Source: a virus
Reading direction: 5' to 3' (one strand)
IMG/VR virus record: IMGVR_UViG_3300044998_000129
Location: 1-60,966 of that record
DNA: 60,966 nt
The notes beneath the pieces are model-generated. The model was not told the origin of the DNA. It saw only the letters and a program-made list of their open reading frames with translations, and searched no databases. The position numbers and the translations under genes are program-made. Of the stretch, positions 1,378 through 60,966 are shown one piece after another (positions within the stretch are counted from its first letter, which is position 1; the number at the start of each line of letters is the position of its first letter).

Positions 1378-1380
1378 TTC

Positions 1381-1695
1381 TCCCACTTTCTCCCACTTTG
1401 CACCCCCTTTTAATCCCACTTTATCTATAAATAAATCAATACTTTATATGTAATTGTATGTAAAGTGGGATAAGTGGGATTGCCGACTTTCGCGTAATTT
1501 TATAGAGGGGCCTAGAACCGCCCCCAGGCCCCCGGAGGGGGATTCTCCCACTTGCCGGGATTTTTCTCCCACTTTGGCCTAACCCATTGATTTCATTAAT
1601 AAAAAAGTGGGAGAAAGTGGGTGAAAGTGGGATAATTTGGCATTGACAGGCAGTCTAACCCATTGATTTTATTACACTTTTGCTTTCTCCCACTT
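1381..1695. repeat. AAGTGGGA iteron array
   Basis: Eleven copies of AAGTGGGA or its complement TCCCACTT lie in 315 bases, at 1381, 1391, 1414, 1463, 1472, 1546, 1567, 1605, 1615 (AAGTGGGT), 1625 and 1688, in both orientations. They sit in AT-rich non-coding DNA between the primase-helicase gene and the next minus-strand gene. Such clusters are typical of initiator or repressor binding regions. The binding protein is not identified. Confidence 0.75.
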
Positions 1696-1712
1696 TGATA
1701 ACCCATTGATTT
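1580..1712. repeat. Three copies of TAACCCATTGATTT
   Basis: The 14-base sequence TAACCCATTGATTT occurs exactly at 1580-1593, 1656-1669 and 1699-1712, always on the plus strand and interleaved with the AAGTGGGA iterons. It is a second repeat family in the same 695-base gene-free stretch (1378-2072), which supports a replication origin or a complex control region. Confidence 0.75.
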
Positions 1713-1777
1713 CAAACAATTTTGCCAAAATCCTTGACCAAACGATAAGCCCTACCACAGCCAAATCAGTTCAAAAC

Positions 1778-1799
1778 TCTTAGAACCAAGCAGGTTCTT
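1778..1799. terminator. Small inverted repeat
   Basis: AGAACC, a five-base spacer and GGTTCT followed by tttt make a short hairpin on the plus strand. It could be a weak terminator or part of the palindrome-rich control region. Low certainty. Confidence 0.3.
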
Positions 1800-1842
1800 T
1801 TACACGTCAAGACTCTAAAGCCCATTAAACCCACGGTGGCCA

Positions 1843-2080
1843 AGCCAACTTCTAGCACTATCAGTTAGCACTGTTAGAAGCCAACTTCTAACACTACCAC
1901 CCATATTAGAAGTCAACTTCTAGACTTATTAGAAGCCAACTTCTAGCTTACCTAGAAGCTAGCTTCAGACAGTATCACTTATATTAGAAGCCAGCTTCTA
2001 ACGCTACTAGAAGTTCACTTTAACAGCATTAAGCCAGCTTCTAACGCTACTAGAAGTTCACCAAGTCAGCTTCTAGCCTT
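1843..2080. repeat. TAGAAG/CTTCTA palindrome cluster
   Basis: Inverted copies of TAGAAG and CTTCTA recur about every 25-40 bases from 1843 to 2080. The best formed is the 18-base palindrome at 1874-1891 (TTAGAAG, four bases, CTTCTAA). The cluster runs into the 3' end of the primase-helicase gene. The regular half-sites suggest a multimeric DNA-binding protein; origin or operator use is inferred from context only. Confidence 0.7.
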
Positions 2081-4532
2081 CCCAAGCATCGCCAAAGGTG
2101 TAGAACTTTGTTCTAACTTGACCTGCGAGGACGACTTGATATTGCATCATAATGCTCTCACGAGTAACCTCGGTAAGCACTTCTGCTTTAATTAATTCTT
2201 GCAAAGTCTTTTCGATATGATCTTGCGTTGTCTTGCCTTGCTCGCTCCCTTGGAACGCAGCATTGTTTTTCAAATACCTTAGCAAAAATCCATGCGGGAT
2301 AACATGCTTCAGATCAACAACCGATTTTGGAACTCTATACTGTAGCCTGGTCGTCGGCTTCATCTTTACATATTGCCGAACGGCATCAACCATCGTTGCA
2401 AGTCGAATCATTTCACCGCCGCCGACTTCGCCATCCTCGACCATGTTGATAATGCGCTCGATGATCTTCAAACTAAAGTCACGAGACCAGTTCCAATGTT
2501 CAAGCGTGATCTTCGGGGTGATGTGATTTTCGAAGACAGCGAGATTGCAGGCGACCTTTAGGGCGTTGATCCAGATGCGGCTTAGATACTTTGACAGCAC
2601 GTCATTTTCATTCATGCGCCTTGTCATGAGTTCGTCAAACTCTTTCATAGCCTGCTTTACTTCTGGGGCTACTTCAATATCGACGACCTGATCTGGATTC
2701 ATCCTAAAGGCTTGCCATATGTCAGCTAGCCGGTTAATGATATATTCTGGTATTGGATAATGGATCGAGTTCGTGGGTTTGATGATCCCGTTATATTCGA
2801 TAATCATTATTCGCGCTGCGAGGCCGCTGTCTCTAACATGCCGCTTGCCGAGAAATTCTTTCATGTAGGTCGGCTGCGTGTCGATTATCATTGTGAAGAC
2901 TGGCCGATGGATAGAAGGCGTGCTATCGTCCTTGCTTGCATATTCTTTGGCGGCAATGGAAAAGTTTCTGCCGCCCATGTCGAACAGGCCGAGAAGCAAT
3001 TTCTTGATCTGACCGCCTTGGCCGAGGTCTTCACCAATCAGGCGTAGAAGATCATGGGCGTCTTCTTCGCTCATCGCAACGAGGGGATAAGGTGTTCTTG
3101 TGAATAGCTGCCGGAAGCCTGATCCGGAAGCTGGTATTTGATTGTCGAAGGTCTTCGACAAGTTCGGGTCAAGGGTCTTCACCGTCAAGGCATCCTTGAC
3201 GATTTGTTCCAGCATGACTTTCCTAGCCTGGCCTTTGCCTCGACCTGTTTCAGCCGACAGGAGGAAATATAGCTGAGGGCCAATGCTTCCGCATTGATAG
3301 CGCCTTGCACATAGACCTGAAATTAAATGCAAGGTGTAGGCTATTGCAAACTGACGAATTGGCTTCTTTGACATGTGATACATATACTGAGCCAACTCGC
3401 CTGTAATACCCGGTGGCCAAGGAAAATCCCATTCACCTTGACTTAGCTTGACTTCTTTGGGTAGAACTGATTCGGCGGCTTGGAGGGCCGCCGTTGATAT
3501 TTCGTTTTGAAGGACAGGGCCGATGGGTTCGCCGTTCACGCGCATGTTTGCGTATAGTTTGGCACCGAGTTCTTCATGGGCTTTGATGATAGCTTCGGGG
3601 TCGTCGCCGATTCGCCATCCGTAAGGAATTGCGATTGCACATCGCTGGGCGTAGGGTTCATTGTTCTGACAGTCTAGGCGGCAGAAAATATCGAAGGCGT
3701 CGCCCCATTCACGACCAAGCAATTCCTTGACGGTCGTCGATAGTGTGCTCCAGCCGCCGTCATTCCATACGCGCGTTGCGTATGATCCTGTCGTTTGCGA
3801 TGCATGGTGCCAATCCCGGCCACCGTTGTTCGTTTCAAAGCCGTGGCGGGCCAGCATGTATTCAATCGGGTAAAGGTGATTGAAGTTGCCGCGTTCGCGC
3901 CCTGGCTTTAGGACGGGTCGCTTCTCTTCCTCGGTCGCTAATTTCTCAGCGACAGCTTTAGTTTCATCAGACAAACGGTGGCCTGGTCGAAATAGATACG
4001 GGCTGCCTGGTTCATAATGGTAGGCGTAGTTTCCTCGTGGGTTGGGTAGGTAGCATATTTGATTCGGGCCTTGATTAACGCGATCTATTCCAAACCCGTA
4101 AAGTTCCAGTAAATCATTTAATGCAGTTGCGGCTGCTGAATAATAGATACCTGGAATTGGATTTGCAATAGGAATCAGAACTCTGTATTTGAAATTAGTG
4201 ATGCCATCGTGACTATATGTCGTGTAGATAAGAAACTCTGACTCGGTAATAGCCCGAACGGCTGCGGCTACCTCGTCAATAGTCGGTGGCCCTTTATCAA
4301 TATCTGCCCACAGTATCGGGAAGCTACCCTTTTCGAATTGAACAGATGCAGTTCGGGCGTTGAACTGATTATAGGTGCTAGGAATAATCCAAAAGCCGTC
4401 AGACTTGTCCCCTTGATAGTAAGGGGCCTTTGCAAATTCAACGATGCTTTTGAAATCTGTTGTATGGTATTCGACACCAGAATACAATTTAGTGTCGTGC
4501 TGACCCTTACCAGCGCATACTTGCAGATTCAT
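2073..4532 (-). CDS. Primase-helicase (AEP-like primase plus DUF3987-like ATPase)
   Basis: 819 aa. The N-terminal part looks like an archaeo-eukaryotic primase: an Asp-x-Asp pair at D77/D79 (WADIDKG) followed by YTTYSHDG and RVLIPIANP, as in phage and plasmid AEP primases. The C-terminal half resembles DUF3987-type helicases, with a variant P-loop AETGRGKGQ at about 427-435, where Gly replaces the usual Ser/Thr after Lys. The frame is open to 4667, but the ATG at 4532 has AAGGG upstream and starts the conserved part. It would start replication; its 3' end lies in the palindrome and iteron cluster. Confidence 0.75.
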   Translation of the reverse strand: MNLQVCAGKGQHDTKLYSGVEYHTTDFKSIVEFAKAPYYQGDKSDGFWIIPSTYNQFNARTASVQFEKGSFPILWADIDKGPPTIDEVAAAVRAITESEFLIYTTYSHDGITNFKYRVLIPIANPIPGIYYSAAATALNDLLELYGFGIDRVNQGPNQICYLPNPRGNYAYHYEPGSPYLFRPGHRLSDETKAVAEKLATEEEKRPVLKPGRERGNFNHLYPIEYMLARHGFETNNGGRDWHHASQTTGSYATRVWNDGGWSTLSTTVKELLGREWGDAFDIFCRLDCQNNEPYAQRCAIAIPYGWRIGDDPEAIIKAHEELGAKLYANMRVNGEPIGPVLQNEISTAALQAAESVLPKEVKLSQGEWDFPWPPGITGELAQYMYHMSKKPIRQFAIAYTLHLISGLCARRYQCGSIGPQLYFLLSAETGRGKGQARKVMLEQIVKDALTVKTLDPNLSKTFDNQIPASGSGFRQLFTRTPYPLVAMSEEDAHDLLRLIGEDLGQGGQIKKLLLGLFDMGGRNFSIAAKEYASKDDSTPSIHRPVFTMIIDTQPTYMKEFLGKRHVRDSGLAARIMIIEYNGIIKPTNSIHYPIPEYIINRLADIWQAFRMNPDQVVDIEVAPEVKQAMKEFDELMTRRMNENDVLSKYLSRIWINALKVACNLAVFENHITPKITLEHWNWSRDFSLKIIERIINMVEDGEVGGGEMIRLATMVDAVRQYVKMKPTTRLQYRVPKSVVDLKHVIPHGFLLRYLKNNAAFQGSEQGKTTQDHIEKTLQELIKAEVLTEVTRESIMMQYQVVLAGQVRTKFYTFGDAWEG

Positions 4533-4673
4533 GAGTTGCCCTTGCCCACAAAGCCCGTTAGACCAGACTGACAGACTGGCACGCAAAACGCAAGCGGAAA
4601 CAAGCCGAACCGCTGGCACTAGACTAATCAGTTTAGTTATTCTAAAAATCTTTGAATATTCGCACACCTGGTC

Positions 4674-8964: not shown

Positions 8965-9828
8965 ATGTCTGAAGAAATCGCAAAAATACCGAATAGTAGC
9001 GAGGCCGAACTAGATTGCCTCGCTTCTGAAATCCTATACGCTACCGAAACGCTGTTCCGAGCTAAGCTAGAATATATTCGCTACGTTGGCTCTCGTTTGT
9101 CAAGGGCCAGGGCGCTGCTTCCATCTGACAAAGATTTCCATGACTGGCGGTCGCTAAACTTTGGCGACAGTCTCACAAGAGAAAGTGCATATAACTACCG
9201 AATCATTGTCGAACGCCTCGGTCATCTTAGCAATGAAGTTTGGGCTAAGATTGGATTGTCAAACTGCTACTTGCTAATGAGCAAAGATCGAGAGACAATC
9301 GACCGTGTTGTTGAGATAGCGATGGCTTCTGAGGAAAAGTCATTGCCTAACTGGAAGTTTTTGGCGCTACTTGCAGAGCCTGAGCTGCCTCCCGATTTAC
9401 CGCCAGAGCTTCGTCCGCCGCCGCCGGGGTATATTCCGCCGCCTACGGCCACGCCTACGGCCACGCCTACGCCTACGGCCACGCCTACGGCCACGCCTAC
9501 GGCCACGCCTACGGCCACGCCTACGGCCACGGCCACGCCTACGGCCACGCCTACGGCCACGCCTACGGCCACGGCCACGCCTACGGCCACGGATCAGAAC
9601 GGCACCCCAAAGATAAAGAAACTTTGGGCTGGACCTGGACCTGTTCCTTTTTATGTGGAGAATGATGATGTGTGCAAGAGAGCTGGATACATGGCTTTCA
9701 AACTAGATGCTACAAAGGAGGAAATCAAACTTGCAACAGGTCTAACAGATCGAAACTTTGATATTGCACTAGCATTTGCATACGGCTATGAAGAAGGCAG
9801 AAAAGACCCAGACTCGCTCGATGACTAA
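8965..9828 (+). CDS. DUF3102-like protein with (Pro-Thr-Ala-Thr) linker
   Basis: 287 aa in three parts. Residues 1-145 are helical and resemble the DUF3102/ParB-like HTH family of plasmid and phage proteins (LLPSDKDFHDWRSLNFGDSLTRES region). Residues about 150-215 are Pro-rich followed by PTAT repeats encoded by tandem 12-base units. The C-terminal 75 residues form a small domain (DATKEEIKLATGLTDRNFD) that looks like a second helix-turn-helix. It may be a DNA-binding regulator. AGGAG precedes the start. Confidence 0.6.
   Translation: MSEEIAKIPNSSEAELDCLASEILYATETLFRAKLEYIRYVGSRLSRARALLPSDKDFHDWRSLNFGDSLTRESAYNYRIIVERLGHLSNEVWAKIGLSNCYLLMSKDRETIDRVVEIAMASEEKSLPNWKFLALLAEPELPPDLPPELRPPPPGYIPPPTATPTATPTPTATPTATPTATPTATPTATATPTATPTATPTATATPTATDQNGTPKIKKLWAGPGPVPFYVENDDVCKRAGYMAFKLDATKEEIKLATGLTDRNFDIALAFAYGYEEGRKDPDSLDD
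9442..9590 (+). repeat. 12-base tandem repeat cctacggccacg inside a gene
   Basis: About twelve near-perfect units, occasionally shortened by six bases, encode the Pro-Thr-Ala-Thr linker. All unit changes keep the frame, so copy number could vary without breaking the protein. Confidence 0.85.
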
Positions 9829-17865: not shown

Positions 17866-18606
17866 ATGCTAAATAATCAACCGATAGAAAAAGTCATCCG
17901 TGAATTTGATGGCTTTTATCAAGTTCACTCTATCTTTGAAACAATTCAAGGCGAAGGTCCATTTTGCGGAACCCCTTGTGTCTTTCTTCGTTTAGCGGGA
18001 TGTAATCTAAACTGCCCGCTCTGCGATACTGACTATACATCTTCGCGAACGAAGATGAATCTTAGTCAGATCATGCATTGGATGACTGATCTTCAACAAA
18101 AACCTGGCCTTGTTGTTGTTACCGGCGGCGAGCCTTTTCGACAACCTATTGGTCCTCTTCTCGATTCATTAACTGAGCATGGCTACTATGTTCAAGTCGA
18201 GACAAATGGAACACTTCCGCCACCAAAACTGACAGGGCGCAACGCAAACTATCAACGTGACGTTCCAAGCAGGATGACTGATCGAAAAGGCGTCTATGTA
18301 GTTTGTTCTCCAAAAACAGGCTACGTTCATCCCGACACAGTGGCCAGAGCTTGTTGCTTCAAATATGTCGTGTCTTGGTCTGATGTAGACGCTACTGATG
18401 GGCTTCCGACACGGGCGCTTAATCACGTTGCAAATCCTAAACTAGCTCGGCCACCGAAGGGCTGGGATTTGCCGATTTATCTTCAACCCGCCGATCATAA
18501 AGATGATTTTGAAAACGCAAAGAATACTTGCGTCGCTCTTGCATCTTGTGTAAAGTTTGGATATACACTTCAGCTTCAAATCCACAAACTTCTTGGTCTG
18601 CCATAG
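17866..18606 (+). CDS. queE: 7-carboxy-7-deazaguanine synthase QueE
   Basis: 246 aa radical SAM enzyme converting 6-carboxytetrahydropterin to 7-carboxy-7-deazaguanine. Cluster ligands C46-x3-C50-x2-C53 (GCNLNCPLCDT), ETIQGEG near 25-31 and TGGEP at 86-90 identify the family. Length is normal. AGAGGA precedes the ATG. It is the first of four preQ0 genes, ten bases ahead of queC. Confidence 0.93.
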   Translation: MLNNQPIEKVIREFDGFYQVHSIFETIQGEGPFCGTPCVFLRLAGCNLNCPLCDTDYTSSRTKMNLSQIMHWMTDLQQKPGLVVVTGGEPFRQPIGPLLDSLTEHGYYVQVETNGTLPPPKLTGRNANYQRDVPSRMTDRKGVYVVCSPKTGYVHPDTVARACCFKYVVSWSDVDATDGLPTRALNHVANPKLARPPKGWDLPIYLQPADHKDDFENAKNTCVALASCVKFGYTLQLQIHKLLGLP

Positions 18607-18615
18607 GAGCCAGCT

Positions 18616-19380
18616 ATGCTTAACAAAGATCGCGCCGTTGTAGTATTCAGCGGCGGACAAGACTCTACGACTTGCCTCTACTATGCAAAGCAAAACTTCA
18701 AAGAAGTTTTTGCTGTGACATTTAACTACGGCCAACGTCATCAGGCGGAGCTAAAAGCTGCAGAGACGATTGCGAAGATGGCGGGTGTCGATCACGAGAT
18801 CATTAATCTCGGCGAAGGTATTCTTAAAGGCACTAGCCCACTAGTAAACAAAAATGAAGAACTAGATCAATACGAAGATCATCATTCTTTGCCTGGCGGC
18901 TTAGAAAAAACCTTTGTTCCAATGCGCAATCAGCTTTTTCTAACAATCGCTGCAAACAGAGCTTACATCCTAGGTTGCAATAATCTTGTGACTGGTGTAT
19001 GTCAAGAAGACTACGGCGGGTATCCTGATTGTCGCAGAGAGTTTATCGACTCGCTAGAAGATACTTGCAGCTATGGCACTTTTACGGGCGAGCCTGAAAC
19101 GTTGCCAAATCTAAACATCATCACGCCTTTGATGAACTTGACTAAAGCCCAGACTGTAAAACTTGCTCAATCGCTTCCCGGATGTATGGAAGCCTTGGCT
19201 TACAGTCATACGGCATACGACGGAAAGTATCCGCCGACTGGAAAAGATCATGCCTCTCTTTTGAGGGCAAAAGGATTTGAGGAAGCTGATGTCCCTGATC
19301 CGCTAGTTGTTCGTGCTGTAAAAGAGGGTCTTATGGAATGGCCCGATACTCCTAACTACCGCAAAGAACTGAGGAGTTAA
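18616..19380 (+). CDS. queC: preQ0 synthase QueC, zinc cysteines replaced
   Basis: 254 aa. ATP-dependent conversion of 7-carboxy-7-deazaguanine to 7-cyano-7-deazaguanine (preQ0). The SGGQDS ATP loop is at 12-17 and FVPMRNQ at 100-106 is typical. In bacterial QueC a zinc site of four Cys precedes the LRAKGF motif; here the region reads PPTGKDHASLLRAKGF (206-221), with Thr, Asp and Ser where CxxCxxC is usual. The fold is otherwise intact, so the enzyme is probably active without that zinc site. Four-base gap to queD. Confidence 0.92.
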   Translation: MLNKDRAVVVFSGGQDSTTCLYYAKQNFKEVFAVTFNYGQRHQAELKAAETIAKMAGVDHEIINLGEGILKGTSPLVNKNEELDQYEDHHSLPGGLEKTFVPMRNQLFLTIAANRAYILGCNNLVTGVCQEDYGGYPDCRREFIDSLEDTCSYGTFTGEPETLPNLNIITPLMNLTKAQTVKLAQSLPGCMEALAYSHTAYDGKYPPTGKDHASLLRAKGFEEADVPDPLVVRAVKEGLMEWPDTPNYRKELRS

Positions 19381-19383
19381 CTG

Positions 19384-19830
19384 ATGTTCACCGTTACCAA
19401 AACCTACGGGCACGATCTCGGGCTTTCTTGCTGCTTCCGTCAACCATTGGCACAATCGCACTGTCGTATGCTTCATGGCTACGCGCTTTCTTTTACTATT
19501 GTTTTCATGTCAGATACGCTGAATGAAAATAATTGGGTAATCGACTTCGGATCACTTAAGCCGATCAAAGAATGGCTTACTTACATGTATGACCATACTA
19601 CGGTCATTGCAGAAGACGATCCGATGCTTGATACTTTTGTCGAATTAAACGACAAAGGTATTATAGATTTACGGATTGCAGAAACTGTTGGATGTGAAGC
19701 CTTTGCGCGTAATACTTTTGAGTTTGTAAAAGACTGGCTTGCTTCGCTAGAACTTAAAAACAATGTTTGGGTATCTTCCGTAACTGTTCGCGAACACGGC
19801 GCAAACGCCGCGACCTATGCAGAGGCTTAG
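19384..19830 (+). CDS. queD: 6-carboxytetrahydropterin synthase QueD-like
   Basis: 148 aa. It would convert dihydroneopterin triphosphate to 6-carboxytetrahydropterin. SHCRMLHGYAL (25-35) supplies the catalytic Cys27 and one zinc His31, but the usual HGH is HGY; YDHT (69-72) and E100 fit the catalytic His and Glu. It matches the divergent phage and alphaproteobacterial branch with HDLGLSCCFRQ at 10-20. Placed between queC and folE. Confidence 0.88.
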   Translation: MFTVTKTYGHDLGLSCCFRQPLAQSHCRMLHGYALSFTIVFMSDTLNENNWVIDFGSLKPIKEWLTYMYDHTTVIAEDDPMLDTFVELNDKGIIDLRIAETVGCEAFARNTFEFVKDWLASLELKNNVWVSSVTVREHGANAATYAEA

Positions 19831-19834
19831 CCTG

Positions 19835-20458
19835 ATGACAAAGAAAACGCCGAATTCTTATCAGTCGCATCATTCTTTTGAACAGTTTCAAGCGGCGGCT
19901 ACGCAAATAATCCATGCAGCAGAAGGTTATGATGACTCTAAAGAAAACGGAGTCCGTAGCGGATTGCAAGAAACTTCAACGCGCTTTGCAAAGGCTTGGG
20001 AGTTTTACACCAGCGGGTATAATAAAGACCCAGCCGAAATCTTAAAATCTTTTGAAGATGGAGCTAAAGACTACGAAGAAATGGTGATGGTAAAAGACAT
20101 CCCTTTCTATAGTCATTGCGAGCATCATCTTGCATCGATTTTTGGCAATGCAACGGTGGCCTATATTCCCGATGGCCGTATTGTAGGACTCTCAAAGCTA
20201 TCTCGGCTCGTAGATATTTTTGCCCGCCGTTTGCAAGTTCAAGAACGAATGACAGTTCAGATTGCAGATGCTTTGAATGATAACCTAGAGCCTAAAGGTT
20301 GCGGTGTTGTCGTAAAAGCGCGTCATATGTGTATGGAAGCTCGCGGTATTTGTCAACAAGGTCATTTGACTGTTACTAGTGCCTTTCGAGGTGTTCTTTA
20401 CCACGATCCTAATGCCAGAGCAGAGTTTTATAGGATCGCAAGCAATGAACACTCTTGA
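19835..20458 (+). CDS. folE: GTP cyclohydrolase I FolE
   Basis: 207 aa. Supplies dihydroneopterin triphosphate from GTP, the first step of preQ0 synthesis. Zinc ligands C95 and H98 (HCEHHLA) and C166 (RHMCMEARG) are present, plus the GLSKLSRLVD stretch. The ATG at 19835 is preferred over 19817 because the latter lies inside queD; AGAGG is just upstream. The stop overlaps the next gene. Confidence 0.93.
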   Translation: MTKKTPNSYQSHHSFEQFQAAATQIIHAAEGYDDSKENGVRSGLQETSTRFAKAWEFYTSGYNKDPAEILKSFEDGAKDYEEMVMVKDIPFYSHCEHHLASIFGNATVAYIPDGRIVGLSKLSRLVDIFARRLQVQERMTVQIADALNDNLEPKGCGVVVKARHMCMEARGICQQGHLTVTSAFRGVLYHDPNARAEFYRIASNEHS

Positions 20459-20813
20459 GATCGACCAAGCTAGAATAGGTCTGGATGAATGGCTGGCCGC
20501 TCGACGAAAGGCCACCGTGGGATCGAGCGCATGGCAGGGCGGCGCAGGGCAGGCTGTAGGGCAGGGCGCAGGGCAGGCTGTAGGGCGGGCTGTAGGGCAG
20601 GCAGGGCAGGACGCAGGGCAGGCTGTAGGGCACGCTGTAGGGCAGGGCGCAGGGCAGGACGCAGGGCAGGCTGTAGGGCACGCTGTAGGGCAGGGCGCAG
20701 GGCAGGACGCAGGGCAGGCTGTAGGGCAGGGTGTAGGGCAGGGCGCAGGGCAGGCTGTAGGGCAGGGTGTAGGGCAGGTTGTAGGGAGGCGACGTTGGCT
20801 GAACTTTTGGTGA
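20445..20813 (+). CDS. Gly-Gln-Ala-Val tandem repeat protein
   Basis: 122 aa, function not recognised. A 30-residue N-terminus (IDQARIGLDEWLAARRK) leads into about 75 residues of AGQAVGQ-type repeats, encoded by G-rich 12-base units, and a short end RRRWLNFW. The ATG overlaps the folE stop, and dpdA begins five bases after its stop, so it is embedded in the DNA modification operon. The repeat resembles both the left-end array and, more loosely, the DAAWDAA repeats of the gene at 7303. Confidence 0.65.
   Translation: MNTLEIDQARIGLDEWLAARRKATVGSSAWQGGAGQAVGQGAGQAVGRAVGQAGQDAGQAVGHAVGQGAGQDAGQAVGHAVGQGAGQDAGQAVGQGVGQGAGQAVGQGVGQVVGRRRWLNFW
20525..20795 (+). repeat. G-rich 12-base tandem array inside a gene
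   Basis: About 22 degenerate units of gcagggcaggct and gtagggcagggc. Longer blocks of about 60 bases are also repeated. All changes keep the frame. Confidence 0.85.
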
Positions 20814-20817
20814 TCCT

Positions 20818-21747
20818 ATGAAGATCTATCTTGCGGCAACGTTCTGGTTTGGCTTTGGAGAAGGTCAACGGCAATACGAAAGGTTGACTGATCCTTACTT
20901 AATAGAAATTGCCCGCAACGTTGAGAATCGCCTAGAGTCGTATCATTATCTTTTGCTCAAAAATACCCTAGCCGAACTAAAAGCTACGGGTATAAAGGTC
21001 TTTGTTGACTCAGGAGCTTTCTCGGCCTGGAATCTAGGCGCTACTATTGATTTGAATGAATATTGTAATTTTCTAAAAGAAAACATGGATATTGTTAAGT
21101 GCGAAGACGGGGTATTTATGGCCTCTGTTTTAGACGGCATTGGTGATCCGCTTCTTACTTGGCAGAATCAAATGGCTATGGAAAAACAAGGTATTTATCC
21201 TCTACCTTGTTTTCACTTTGGCGAAGACGAACAATATCTTGATTGGTATTTGAAAAACTACGAATACATTACTATTGGCGGCTGCGTTGGCCGTAGAACA
21301 GAAGAGCTTATTGGCTGGCTTGATATGATCTGGTCAAGACATATCCTAGATAAGAACGGAAAGCCAAAGCGTAAAGTTCACGGATTTGGTATTACTTCGA
21401 TTCCTATTATGGAAAGATACCCTTGGTGGTCAGTTGACTCTACGTCTTGGATTCAAATAGCATCTTTTGGCGCTATTTTAGTTCCTGGCTTTGGGACTTT
21501 GCATGTATCTAATACTTCACCAAATCGACACGAAAAAGGAGCTCATTTTAATAGCCTATCTGAATATGAGCAAAAGCACATTGCAAAAATGATTAAGCAA
21601 GAAGGTTTTGATCTTGATTATTTGAAAGATCATTATCTAGGTCGTGCCGCTTACAATCTTAAAGCGTTTCAAAGTATTCAAAATAATATCAATCGTAAAC
21701 ATCAAGAGCGAACAACAAAAATGCCAATGAGCCAGTATCTGTTTTAG
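20818..21747 (+). CDS. dpdA: DpdA-type DNA-guanine transglycosylase
   Basis: 309 aa. Resembles phage DpdA proteins, TGT-fold enzymes that replace guanine in DNA with a 7-deazaguanine. VDSGAFSAW puts a first catalytic Asp at D64, HGFGIT at 188-193 and the second Asp D207 in WWSVDSTSW fit the family. IGGCVGRR (153-160) is the substrate loop region. With FolE, QueD, QueE and QueC upstream and no QueF, ArcS or Gat-QueC partner, the expected mark is preQ0 in DNA. It is followed closely by the replication genes. Confidence 0.85.
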   Translation: MKIYLAATFWFGFGEGQRQYERLTDPYLIEIARNVENRLESYHYLLLKNTLAELKATGIKVFVDSGAFSAWNLGATIDLNEYCNFLKENMDIVKCEDGVFMASVLDGIGDPLLTWQNQMAMEKQGIYPLPCFHFGEDEQYLDWYLKNYEYITIGGCVGRRTEELIGWLDMIWSRHILDKNGKPKRKVHGFGITSIPIMERYPWWSVDSTSWIQIASFGAILVPGFGTLHVSNTSPNRHEKGAHFNSLSEYEQKHIAKMIKQEGFDLDYLKDHYLGRAAYNLKAFQSIQNNINRKHQERTTKMPMSQYLF

Positions 21748-28579: not shown

Positions 28580-29878
28580 CTACGGGATTAGACCAACTCC
28601 GTGCCACGAAACATTAAGATTATTGTCAATAATGTTCGTGTTTGGGTTAACCGGCGGATTGATACCGAGAAATGCACGATAAGAGTGCTGAATCGTTACG
28701 TTGCCGAGTGCAGGAAGAAGAACAAACTGCCTGAGTATCAAGTCAGTTGTATCGACAATTATTCTTGCACCGTTTGGACCTGATGCTAAAGCATGAGCGA
28801 GAGGCCCACCGCCACCGTTAACAGATATTTGGCCTTCAAAACGAATAGTATCGTTATCGGCAGCCTGCATCTGTATGTGGTATCGGTATAGCATATCGAG
28901 AACGATTGGAACTGGATGCGGGTTATTAATAGTGATGATGCCTGGGCCTGGAGTAAACGCAGGCGGAACAATGGGTATCGCGTTAATGTCAGGGAATGGC
29001 AAGTTGCCCTGACCTTGAACGCTTACCAAGTTTGGAATAACCGCGTCAATATCCAAACGCCGAACCTGACCGTTTCGACAAATTAGAACATAGTCGTTCG
29101 GATCAGAAGTATTAACGATTGGTTCGGTGCATGGCGTGAACGCAGGGCCGGGTGGGCCGGGCGGGCCAGCGGGGCCGGGGTCGCCTTGCGGGCCTTGGGG
29201 GCCAGCGGGGCCGGGGTCGCCTTGGGGGCCTTGCGGGCCAGCGGGGCCTTGGGGACCGGGCGGCCCAGCGGGGCCGGGGTCGCCTTGGGGGCCTTGGGGG
29301 CCTTGCGGGCCAGCGGGGCCGGGGTCGCCTTGGGGGCCTTGGGGACCGGGCGGCCCAGCGGGTCCGGGCGGGCCGGGCGGCCCAGCGGGTCCGGGCGGGC
29401 CGGGCGGCCCAGCGGGTCCGGGCGGTCCGGGCGGGCCGTTACCGCCAATCGGCCCCCTAATAATGTTTCCGTTTCCATCACAAAGAATTGCTGTAGAGAG
29501 TGGAAAGTTTGTTGCTGGATCAGGGTCGAAAGGTCGATTGCAGAGATGTGTCTGAATCCAATCAAGCAGCGAATCTTCATAGCTGCCAGCGAGCCATTGC
29601 TGGAACATTTGGGAAAGGTTGCACACCGCTCCGCAGTTCCAGTTACCATTAGGATTAAGCGTTTCAGCAAGGCAGAGGAGTTCTGCCTCGATTGCGTTAA
29701 TCTGTGCGGCTGTAATTCTAGCTGAACATCCTTCTGGAAGATAATAGATCGCGCACGACGAAGTGAAATTCGGCGATGGGCAATAGTAGTTTTGAACGTT
29801 GAGTGGATTGAGGCAGTTACCTAGCGGATCGCGAGTTTGAACTGCCCCCGAGCTGGGCTCAGGAATAATGCCGGGCAT
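28580..29878 (-). CDS. Collagen-like tail fibre protein
   Basis: 432 aa. A Cys-rich N-terminal 140 residues, then about 105 residues of Gly-x-y triplets ([19 protein letters not shown] pattern) predicted to form a triple helix, then a 150-residue C-terminal domain also present in the next fibre gene ([15 protein letters not shown], then SWHGVGL). It is probably a trimeric host-contact fibre. It ends the tail operon before the lysis genes. Confidence 0.8.
29144..29455 (-). repeat. Collagen Gly-x-y coding repeat
   Basis: About 100 codons of 9- and 18-base tandem units encoding GPP, GPA, GPQ and GDP triplets. Unit changes keep the frame. Confidence 0.9.
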
Positions 29879-30760: not shown

Positions 30761-31684
30761 CTAGGTTCCGCAGCGATAGAGAATGTTAGGGCACTGTTTC
30801 TTCAGCAACGAACGGGCAATACATTCGGCTGCAAGGACAGCCGGATACACAACGATAACAGGATCACCTTGCTCGCATTGATAGTTCTGAGCCATAGCAA
30901 CATCAGGGCTTCGCTCTTGGCAAGCGTCCAAGGGAGGACAGCCGGGGAGCCATTCGCTTGTTTGACATATCTCAAACTCGACTTCATCACAAAAGCATGG
31001 GTATTCGTCAGCATCACAGTTACCTTGCAGATAGTCGAGCACTTCTTGCGGGTATGGAATTCTTGGTCTTACGGAAGCCCGAAGTGGCTCCAATACCCAA
31101 TTAATTCCGTCAAGAGTCTTTATGACTCCTCGTCTAGCCCTAGCTAGTGACATGAGGATTGCATGTTTAAGCGCACAATTGAACTCGTCGCTAAACGTTG
31201 GCTCGCAATAGATCGGTCCGCAATCACCTGGACGTTCAAAAGGCGATAATCCAAAAGAGGCCAAAGTCCTACAATGTGTCCTGTAGCAATCTTCCCAACC
31301 AAATCGTTCTAGCCAATCGTCTATAGTTGTAACGGCAGTTGCTGGATTAGCTTCGCGAATTGCAGGCCAAAGGATCGTCCTTGTCATTTCATTTAGGACT
31401 AGGCCACCGTAGACGCCATACCAAACCATCGAAAGGCATTCTGGCTCGAAGGGGCCTTCGCAATTAGGTGCGGTTTGTTGAATTATTTGACGAGCTTCCA
31501 GTTTTGCAAAATCCCACATCGGACCTGAAGGAAGCAGATCAATAAAAGAACATATTGTGTCACAAAGCGGAACGCAAAGGGGGTCGGGACAGCAGAAGTC
31601 GCCAGCTATACGACCGACAGGCGCCGCTCCCTCTGAGGTTAACCTTAATCCGCTTATTCCATAGTATAGCGCCGCCGTTGACAT
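30761..31684 (-). CDS. Baseplate protein, Mu gp48 / P2 gpI-like
   Basis: 307 aa. Position after the J-like protein, the LLPSGPMWDFAKLEARQI start and the ARRGVIKTLDG segment fit DUF2313 / tail protein I. It is unusually rich in Cys (CCPDPLCVPLCDTIC near 31-45 and many later). It overlaps the J-like stop by one base. Confidence 0.75.
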   Translation of the reverse strand: MSTAALYYGISGLRLTSEGAAPVGRIAGDFCCPDPLCVPLCDTICSFIDLLPSGPMWDFAKLEARQIIQQTAPNCEGPFEPECLSMVWYGVYGGLVLNEMTRTILWPAIREANPATAVTTIDDWLERFGWEDCYRTHCRTLASFGLSPFERPGDCGPIYCEPTFSDEFNCALKHAILMSLARARRGVIKTLDGINWVLEPLRASVRPRIPYPQEVLDYLQGNCDADEYPCFCDEVEFEICQTSEWLPGCPPLDACQERSPDVAMAQNYQCEQGDPVIVVYPAVLAAECIARSLLKKQCPNILYRCGT

Positions 31685-52223: not shown

Positions 52224-53447
52224 TTAGATATACAAGACATCGGCGGCCTGTTCACCAGAGTAGGAAATTGTCAAATCTTCAACCGCATATCTTATGGCAT
52301 CAATACAATGATCGTTCTGATTAGGAGCCGGAAGAGGCAGCGGTTTTCCGTTAGGGTCTGTATGCCATTTATAGTCTCGGATTTCATCAGCTGTCACCGG
52401 ACAATCGGGCGAAATAACAAGCTCAAAACCTTGCAACCAGTTAATTCCATTTTTGACTGAACCAGCACCTTTTCTTGCACTGTGAATACTGAATCCCTTG
52501 GATTGTAGGTATTCAATTGTTTCAGGTCTTGCACTATCTGCGGTAATCGGCCAGTCACGAATTTCAGTAATGGTGTCCATCAGCGCGGGCAGGTCGCGGT
52601 TAGAAACTTTATAGCCTACAGCTTCTTCCGCAATATAGACAATACCCTCGTCTTCAAGCACATAGAGTTTAATGATGACGTTTGGGTCCGAGCCGTATCC
52701 AAAATCTTCACCAAAGCGAGGACGAATCTTTGGAGGAACATCAATTCGACCGACACGCCAGTTATCGAAGATCGCGACATCGGGATTTTCGTCGTAACCA
52801 CCTTCCCAGATATGAACATGCCGTTTTGGATTCTTCAGCGACCGGCGATATTCCGAGGGCATCCGGGTCTGCATGAAGTAGGGGTTATCTCGCCAGCTTA
52901 CTTTTCGGATATACGACCGTTCCGGAATATTAGCTCCACGAAAAAGATTATCAACTGGGTCTGTGCGATAGCGCGGATTCCACGACCAAATCATTCGCGA
53001 CCCTAGCGTCCGAACAGTCGGGATAATAATTTCAACCGACTTAGCCGTAAACATATGCGCTTCTTCGCCCCAGAAGATAGTGCAACCTTCCAAAGACTTT
53101 GCACTGTCGGGGTTACGATCCATACCAATGAAAGAGAATCTTGATCCAGTCGAAACGTTAACAAGTTCTCTTTCTGTTTCAGTAAAGAACGCTGACATAT
53201 TCATTTTCTTGATTTTAATTTGCAGCAGTTCTTTCACTGAGTCTTTGATCGAGTTTTGAAACTGACGACCGCAGACAATCCGCTCCTCTTTCTTACACGA
53301 AGCACCAATGATCGCTTCCCCAATACTATGTGACTTTGCGCCTCCACGGCCACCGTAGAAGGCGTAGTGCTCGATAGGTTCTTGGGTATCTGGAAACTTA
53401 CCAGTCCAAAGCGGTAGGTAAACTTCCGGAACGATCAAGTTATCCAT
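52224..53447 (-). CDS. Terminase large subunit
   Basis: 407 aa. Walker A GGRGGAKS at 33-40, Walker B TIFWGEEAHM near 124, and nuclease residues in DFGYGSDPN near 243, ITADSARPE near 303 and DHCIDAIRYA near 386. Belongs to the PBSX/Terminase_3 type. It pumps and cuts DNA. It is 5 kb away from the small subunit. Confidence 0.93.
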   Translation of the reverse strand: MDNLIVPEVYLPLWTGKFPDTQEPIEHYAFYGGRGGAKSHSIGEAIIGASCKKEERIVCGRQFQNSIKDSVKELLQIKIKKMNMSAFFTETERELVNVSTGSRFSFIGMDRNPDSAKSLEGCTIFWGEEAHMFTAKSVEIIIPTVRTLGSRMIWSWNPRYRTDPVDNLFRGANIPERSYIRKVSWRDNPYFMQTRMPSEYRRSLKNPKRHVHIWEGGYDENPDVAIFDNWRVGRIDVPPKIRPRFGEDFGYGSDPNVIIKLYVLEDEGIVYIAEEAVGYKVSNRDLPALMDTITEIRDWPITADSARPETIEYLQSKGFSIHSARKGAGSVKNGINWLQGFELVISPDCPVTADEIRDYKWHTDPNGKPLPLPAPNQNDHCIDAIRYAVEDLTISYSGEQAADVLYI

Positions 53448-54383: not shown

Positions 54384-54413
54384 GGTCTTTCGAAGTAGTC
54401 CAGCAGGGAGGCT

Positions 54414-54490
54414 CTAAGAACACATGCTCTCCGCGCACGGAGACCCTAAGAACACATGCTCTCCGCGCACGGAGACCCTAAGAACAAAGA
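54414..54490 (-). repeat. 32-bp tandem repeats with hairpins
   Basis: Two exact 32-base copies (54414-54445 and 54446-54477) and a partial third. Each contains CTCCG-cgca-CGGAG, so the transcript has two tandem identical hairpins between the genes at 54510 and 54162. Not a CRISPR: there are no spacers. Confidence 0.8.
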
Positions 54491-60801: not shown

Positions 60802-60868
60802 GCTGGAGAGATGGTGCGTCCGTCCTTGTGCCTAGGTCGCGCCATAGATTAGCGCCGAGGGGTCGATC

Positions 60869-60966
60869 TGGGGCTGGGCTGGGGCTGGGTCGAGGGCTGG
60901 GGCTGGGGCTGGGGCTGGGGCTGGGGTGGGGCGGGGGGGGGGGGTGGGGTGGGTCGGGGGGTGGGG
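60869..60966. repeat. G-rich simple repeat at the right end
   Basis: Units of ggggct run for about 65 bases and decay into a nearly pure G and T tract. It may be a true terminal feature or a sequencing or assembly artefact. G runs of this type could form quadruplexes. Confidence 0.75.

Follow-up and report, generated by a model that had tools for sequence, protein, structure and literature searches.

The gene-free stretch at positions 1378-2072 of the DNA analysed here (the window, 60,966 bases) is likely, as judged from sequence comparison, a phage origin of replication that is bound by the product of the bordering primase-helicase gene. The enzyme probably binds the origin via its C-terminal domain, predicted to be winged-helix-like. 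The window comprises a whole IMG/VR virus record, classed as linear, and its gene set is that of a contractile-tailed phage (terminase, portal, major head protein, tail sheath, tape measure, baseplate hub, and tail fibre), with the terminase gene at 52224-53447. Replication-type genes (DNA polymerase A, processivity factor, SSB, ligase, Cas4-type exonuclease, and DNA helicase) and a queuosine-pathway cluster are also encoded, and with this combination of virion, replication, and queuosine genes the phage looks lytic. A search for tRNA genes found none. The DNA polymerase A is closest to those of Microcystis phage Me-ZS1 and the Baskent/VPv64 group (~47% identity); in Me-ZS1, replication and queuosine genes are arranged in a similar order, with the primase-helicase at one end. 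Searches of phages and of plasmids gave no DNA-level relatives of region 1378-2072.

The stretch is located directly downstream (3') of the primase-helicase gene, between the stop codon of that gene (ending at 2073) and the ATG (1377) of gene 652-1377, both genes being encoded on the minus strand. It contains three repeat families, which occur far above chance and are essentially limited to it within the 61-kb record (Table 1). The heptamer AAGTGGG is present in 11 copies in 1381-1696 and in 3 copies in the rest of the window. The iterons read AAGTGGGA in ten cases and AAGTGGGT in one (at 1615); AAGTGGGA is the commonest 8-mer of the region (dinucleotide shuffles gave a mean maximum of 2.2), and all 8 copies of the longer form AAAGTGGGA are found inside the array. 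Three minus-strand iterons (1381-1422) and two plus-strand iterons enclose an AT-rich core, which overlaps a 13-bp repeat pair, ACTTTATCTATAA/ACTTTATATGTAA. In a second opposed set, two minus-strand and three plus-strand iterons enclose the first of three exact copies of the box TAACCCATTGATTT, a sequence with zero copies elsewhere in the window. The initial annotation had described eleven iterons, three exact boxes, and a run of TAGAAG/CTTCTA palindromes in gene-free, AT-rich DNA beside the primase-helicase. The gene limits, boxes, and palindromes stand as described, and the position can be made precise as downstream of the gene. The count of eleven holds for the heptamer, whereas the exact 8-mer is repeated only ten times; the stretch as a whole is only modestly AT-rich (about 40-42% GC in its core vs about 48% in the genome), although the segment between the opposed iterons is the window's joint most AT-rich 42-mer. 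Rfam matches within the gap (plant miRNAs, a Listeria sRNA) were below gathering scores and biologically implausible, and were rejected.

Table 1. Features of the candidate origin and the adjoining primase-helicase gene (window coordinates).
Feature	Position	Strand	Remarks
Candidate replication origin, entire gene-free stretch	1378-2072		
Iterons 1-2, AAAGTGGGA x2	1381-1399	-	Starts 1381 and 1391, 10 bp apart; abut/overlap Shine-Dalgarno-like GGGAG before ATG 1377
Iteron 3, left edge of AT-rich core	1414-1422	-	Start 1414
AT-rich core, candidate unwinding element	1423-1464		86% AT; holds IHF-consensus match
IHF-consensus match AATCAATACTTTA (consensus WATCARNNNNTTR)	1434-1446	+	
Iterons 4-5, right edge of AT-rich core	1462-1479	+	Starts 1462 and 1471; opposed to iterons 1-3
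Iterons 6-7	1546-1575	-	Starts 1546 and 1567
Box 1 TAACCCATTGATTT	1580-1593	+	IHF consensus AATCAATGGGTTA on minus strand; A6 tract follows
Iterons 8-10	1604-1632	+	Starts 1604, 1614, and 1624; 10-bp period
Box 2 TAACCCATTGATTT	1656-1669	+	
Iteron 11	1688-1696	-	Start 1688
Box 3 TAACCCATTGATTT	1699-1712	+	
Nine 16-bp dyads TAGAAGYCARCTTCTA, four perfect	1839-2075		Starts 1839, 1875, 1907, 1930, 1953, 1985, 2008, 2028, and 2060 (perfect: 1875, 1907, 1930, and 1985), 20-36 bp apart; reaches primase-helicase stop codon
Primase-helicase gene (phrog_3022, DUF3987), proposed initiator	2073-4667	-	
Primase-helicase C-terminal domain, modelled as winged-helix-like; proposed iteron-binding domain	2073-2420	-	

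The third repeat family consists of four perfect TAGAAG-N4-CTTCTA dyads and five degenerate ones. When at most 3 mismatches were allowed, the dyad consensus gave 15 matches in the window vs 1.64 expected, 14 of them inside the array, and 0/100 shuffles reached 15. Single-strand folding is better than in shuffles in both parts of the gap (z of -7.1 for the dyad part and -5.1 for the other), because the gap contains many inverted repeats and not one large stem. The likeliest candidate function of the dyads is that of a binding array for a dimeric regulator of copy control or transcription, the alternatives being a second initiator site or extruded hairpins. The search for a regulator matching the array found none, and no counterpart of the array was seen in the relatives examined. 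A further array-like dyad, TAGAACTTTGTTCTA, is present at 2100-2120, within the 3' end of the primase-helicase gene.

On the minus strand, the box fits the IHF consensus without a mismatch. The published consensus was used as an independent test, a family-box consensus read by eye being partly circular. Of its 10 matches in the whole 61 kb, 4 are inside the gap, namely the three boxes and the one in the AT-rich core; shuffles of the gap gave a mean of 0.06 and 0/1000 reached 4. The A6 tract after box 1 is as in strong IHF sites, with lambda H' as the comparison. Among relatives, the 400 bases 3' of the primase-helicase contain 22 matches to the IHF consensus vs 3.7 expected, at 13 of 82 loci. 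The TAACCC box also resembles a box repeated in the putative origins of relatives; in Escherichia coli phage Halfdan (CTAACCCCCTGATTTCATTGA) and Stenotrophomonas phage Bhz54 (TTAACCTATTGATTCTAAAG) it is recognisably the window's CTAACCCATTGATTTCATTAA. For the family box GCTAAGTCATTGATTTC (14/17 matches or more), 18 copies were counted in 49 kb after the gene vs 11 in 511 kb elsewhere, a figure that is supportive only, because the window is among the loci counted and the consensus had been read by eye from part of the loci to which it was then applied.

The GC-skew check suggested in the initial annotation was run on the whole record. Cumulative skew has its minimum at 2494, near the gap, and its maximum at 30949, nearly opposite if the genome circularises. 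The minimum fits an origin at 1378-2072, weakly, because gene direction also changes along the genome and partly confounds the signal. Skew within minus-strand genes differs between the two arms (p=0.0006), which we likewise treat as weak support, because the arms were delimited with these very data and the ORFs include spurious ones.

Relatives of the primase-helicase are detectable in 322 phage records. The family profile, compared with solved primases, best matches 7ola/7om0 over its N-terminal part (E 1e-57), followed by the 6k9a/6a9w group; we take these to be SaPI5 PriRep1 and NrS-1 polymerase, respectively. The Pfam model of the NrS-1 HBD matches 50 of 53 relatives and has no match in the window's enzyme, where the N-terminal part has diverged and its model is poor. 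The model of the helicase part matches MCM-type AAA+ helicases (best E 1.6e-4), with PriRep1 in complex with double-stranded DNA (7pds) among the matches (E 0.015); by its DUF3987 domain and the MCM-type fold match, the proposed initiator is predicted to be an AAA+ helicase of the ring-forming type. In the AlphaFold model, the C-terminal 115 residues (pLDDT 84) are arranged as helix, short strand, helix, helix, strand, and strand with an inserted helix, and this domain is modelled as winged-helix-like. A Foldseek search of the PDB with this model returned mostly winged-helix proteins, all of them weak or not significant (best E 0.38), and no sequence-profile match was found for the domain. In the 20 phages whose iterons could be read, the more alike the enzymes, the more alike the iterons (Spearman 0.58-0.66), a covariation not specific to any enzyme domain, the C-terminal one included. 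A partial Mantel test for recognition of the iterons by the C-terminal domain was suggestive (0.31, p=0.0055), but this assignment was abandoned, since the helicase part gave a similar score.

Comparison with relatives supplies the strongest evidence, and five phages of different hosts were examined. In Vibrio phage VpKK5, Pseudomonas phage Baskent_P4_1, E. coli phage Halfdan, Sphingomonas phage Lucius, and Achromobacter phage ART, whose enzymes are ~21-24% identical to the window's over the alignment, a gap of 240-430 bases directly after the primase-helicase contains opposed 8-10-bp iterons around an AT-rich stretch. The letters of the iterons vary between phages: AAAGGGAAA in VpKK5, GGGGGATAG in Baskent, TATAAGGG in Halfdan, TTGTATG in Lucius, and GGGGCAGATG in ART. 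The gap of Me-ZS1 carries AAAAGGAA blocks on both sides of an AT-rich core and two GTGGGA near the stop codon. A wide alignment of the enzymes proved too divergent, and a tighter one was used for the relatives. For the survey, 80 primase-helicase relatives from viral contigs were taken, and the 435 bases after the gene were scored for short iterons (8-mers, at most 1 mismatch, excess over shuffles), with equal stretches after other genes of the same contigs as controls. An excess of at least 4 was found in 13/75 phages vs 4/261 control gene ends (odds ratio 13.5, p=1.6e-6). This score replaced a generic 7-mer repeat score, on which low-complexity repeats in coding DNA had an overriding influence and which, with window numbers taken into account, gave no separation of downstream from upstream non-coding DNA. 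Scanning viral contigs for exact AAAGTGGGAGAAAGTGGG and TAGAAGCCAACTTCTA gave mostly single isolated matches and no contig with an array, and a single-protein search of viral contigs found no relative. The architecture is not universal: many relatives examined have no clear iterons directly downstream of the primase-helicase, the same search found no clear iteron gap after this gene in Nipunavirus NP1, RcSpartan, and BA3, and in several phages an iteron or box region is located 0.7-3.6 kb further downstream. Loci L087-L089, like that of Rhodobacter phage RcSpartan (L063), have no iterons directly 3' of the primase-helicase. Two family boxes are found ~3.2-3.6 kb downstream in L087-L089, where the origin may have moved to them.

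A closer comparison is offered by Stenotrophomonas phages ply2008005c and Bhz54, whose primase-helicases are 99% identical over 702 aligned residues. In the alignment of their gaps (L150:2112-2540 and L148:2112-2500), iteron columns are 94% identical vs 62% for other columns (p=3e-8), and CTTGGTGGCTAAGGC is replaced by TAACCTATTGATTC/TAACTTATTGGTTTT at both box positions. Where the enzyme is kept, the iterons are thus kept too and the box is not, which points to the enzyme as the iteron partner and to a different, exchangeable factor as the partner of the box. As Stenotrophomonas is the host of both phages, the swap also argues against a simple reading in which host IHF is essential, and host IHF may not be the indispensable partner of the boxes. 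The gap of Bhz54 has an apparent duplicated stretch after a T run, possibly an assembly error.

Repeats at this position could also serve gene regulation. It might be assumed that the stretch is no origin and that it is an operator or leader region whose repeats bind repressors or activators of gene 652-1377, end transcription of the replication genes, or both. Iterons 1-2 overlap the ribosome-binding region of gene 652-1377, and dyad arrays are typical of dimeric regulators. However, a search of the gap found no terminator and no sigma-70-type promoter (0 vs 2.0 in shuffles), gene 652-1377 is without detectable relatives while the architecture recurs in phages with other downstream genes, and regulation does not need opposed iterons around an AT-rich core; we consider this explanation unlikely. 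A related issue is whether the boxes, the iterons, or both act mainly as primase template signals and not as double-strand binding sites, the stretch still being an origin. NrS-1 polymerase starts primers at 5'-TTTGGTTA, with 5'-GTGG as its most efficient site (PMC8718748). The window's repeats resemble these motifs: GTGG is part of the iteron, and CAATGGGTTA is the reading of the box. The N-terminal part of the family is also related to the NrS-1 PrimPol. This possibility appears quite unlikely when it is considered that the iterons of most relatives are without GTGG, that the window's protein does not match the NrS-1 HBD model, and that opposed paired blocks are better suited to ring assembly.

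The initial annotation had left the choice between an origin and a partition site. In the second case, a ParB/ParR-like protein on the dyad array would segregate a plasmid-like prophage from a centromere-like site, and nine dyads in 237 bp, several spaced at roughly helical-repeat multiples (23, 32, 32 bp), could be read in this way. The window proteins scanned (a subset of the ORFs) contain no ParA, ParB, ParM, TubZ, or integrase family, though, and the gene set looks lytic; moreover, the dyads are seen in no relative, and the iterons, boxes, and AT-rich core would be left unexplained. With nothing specific in its favour, a partition function is very improbable, and an origin is preferred because of the conserved position after the same initiator-type gene, the conserved architecture of opposed iterons and AT-rich core, the iterons being kept where their flanks diverge, and the IHF-consensus boxes. 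Short repeated motifs are also found at packaging sites, but a pac/cos site or another structural recognition region is hardly credible here, as the terminase gene is far off in the linear record and in relatives the repeats follow the primase-helicase and not the terminase.

The preferred reading, an origin recognised by the primase-helicase, has parallels among known replicons. For SaPI Rep and SCCmec Cch2, the origin is placed immediately 3' of the gene of the initiator-helicase, which binds the iterons there through its C-terminal domain, possibly as two hexamers (PMC7581432). The proposed likeness extends to a hexameric initiator helicase, short iterons (AAGTG in SCCmec), an origin downstream of the initiator's own gene, and the matches of the family's helicase model to PriRep1 (7pds) and of its primase part to 7ola/7om0. 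The window, in contrast, belongs to a tailed phage that encodes its own DNA polymerase A, a DUF3987 AAA+ domain is part of the primase-helicase fusion, and eleven iterons occur alongside IHF-type boxes and a dyad array. In phage P4 alpha, one polypeptide comprises primase, helicase, and a C-terminal winged-helix domain for binding short repeats of the origin (PMC4234260). This combination, acting on ori/crr, is the proposed point of likeness to the window's enzyme, whereas the P4 primase is of bacterial (Toprim) type. The P4 origin is also arranged differently, ori and crr being separate. Features of SaPI/SCCmec/P4-like origins, iterons directly downstream of the initiator gene and an AT-rich region flanked by iterons, are both present in the window. 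In pRN1, ORF904 has an archaeo-eukaryotic primase, a helicase, and a C-terminal winged helix with the origin directly downstream of the gene, and the same arrangement was suggested by the authors for some phages (BIP-1) (PMC4234260). The pRN1/BIP-1 type, one large stem-loop without iterons, was rejected as a model for the gap, which has iterons and many inverted repeats. NrS-1 primase-polymerase shares a related N-terminal primase part, a C-terminal ring helicase, and a sequence-specific start; the available parts of the sources deal with single-strand priming sites and describe no downstream iteron origin (PMC8718748, PMC7102993). Iteron plasmid and lambda-type origins also combine iterons, an AT-rich unwinding element, and IHF-type bends, but there a separate Rep or O protein loads host DnaB, while the initiator proposed for the window is the replicative helicase itself. 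By likeness to SaPI Rep/SCCmec Cch2, P4 alpha, and pRN1, we propose iteron binding by the C-terminal domain and two opposed rings for the window.

From the repeats and their arrangement, the position and architecture conserved in relatives, the preferential conservation of the iterons, and the family and domain composition of the enzyme (by sequence or model), we infer origin use, initiator binding, ring assembly, melting, and a box-binding protein. In the proposed mechanism, the C-terminal winged-helix-like domain would bind the AAAGTGGGA iterons, and two oppositely oriented rings would assemble on the opposed iteron blocks. Bending of DNA at the TAACCCATTGATTT boxes, by IHF or a phage protein, would aid melting of the AT-rich core. 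The helicase would next load on the opened strands, the primase domain would make primers, and DNA polymerase A would extend them. A broader and more tentative suggestion, which may well prove too general, is that a recurrent and apparently undescribed class of origin is common to phages with DUF3987-type primase-helicases. It would consist of an AT-rich core, opposed iterons whose letters co-evolve with the initiator, and a modular box of the TAAC/TAAGnnATTGATTT type, replaceable at both positions while initiator and iterons stay, i.e., with a second factor exchanged independently; the window would add the dyad array. No published origin for phages with this enzyme was found in the openly accessible literature searched. 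A shared architecture beside the initiator gene would make origins predictable from sequence, offer a simple test system for initiator-iteron recognition (the initiator gene and a few hundred bases), and link phage replicons to those of SaPI/SCCmec satellites and islands.

Several other features of the record were also observed. Genes for QueE, QueC, QueD, GTP cyclohydrolase, and a tRNA-guanine transglycosylase-like protein are located at 17866-21747, between replication genes as in Me-ZS1, which suggests 7-deazaguanine modification of the phage DNA. GC-rich tandem arrays of short units (CGCCCTACGGCC, CGCCTACGGCCA, AGGGCAGGCTGT, and CTGGGG) are present at both contig ends and in the interior (1-230, 9440-9592, 20546-20790, 29146-29438, and 60868-60966); the end arrays may be the reason why assembly stopped, and the record may not be the full genome. 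The C-rich array is adjoined at 230-500 by imperfect, strongly T-rich AACTTTTAGTTTCACTTTCTA-like repeats, and an intergenic 32-bp repeat, GCACGGAGACCCTAAGAACACATGCTCTCCGC, is present in 2.6 copies at 54403-54486.
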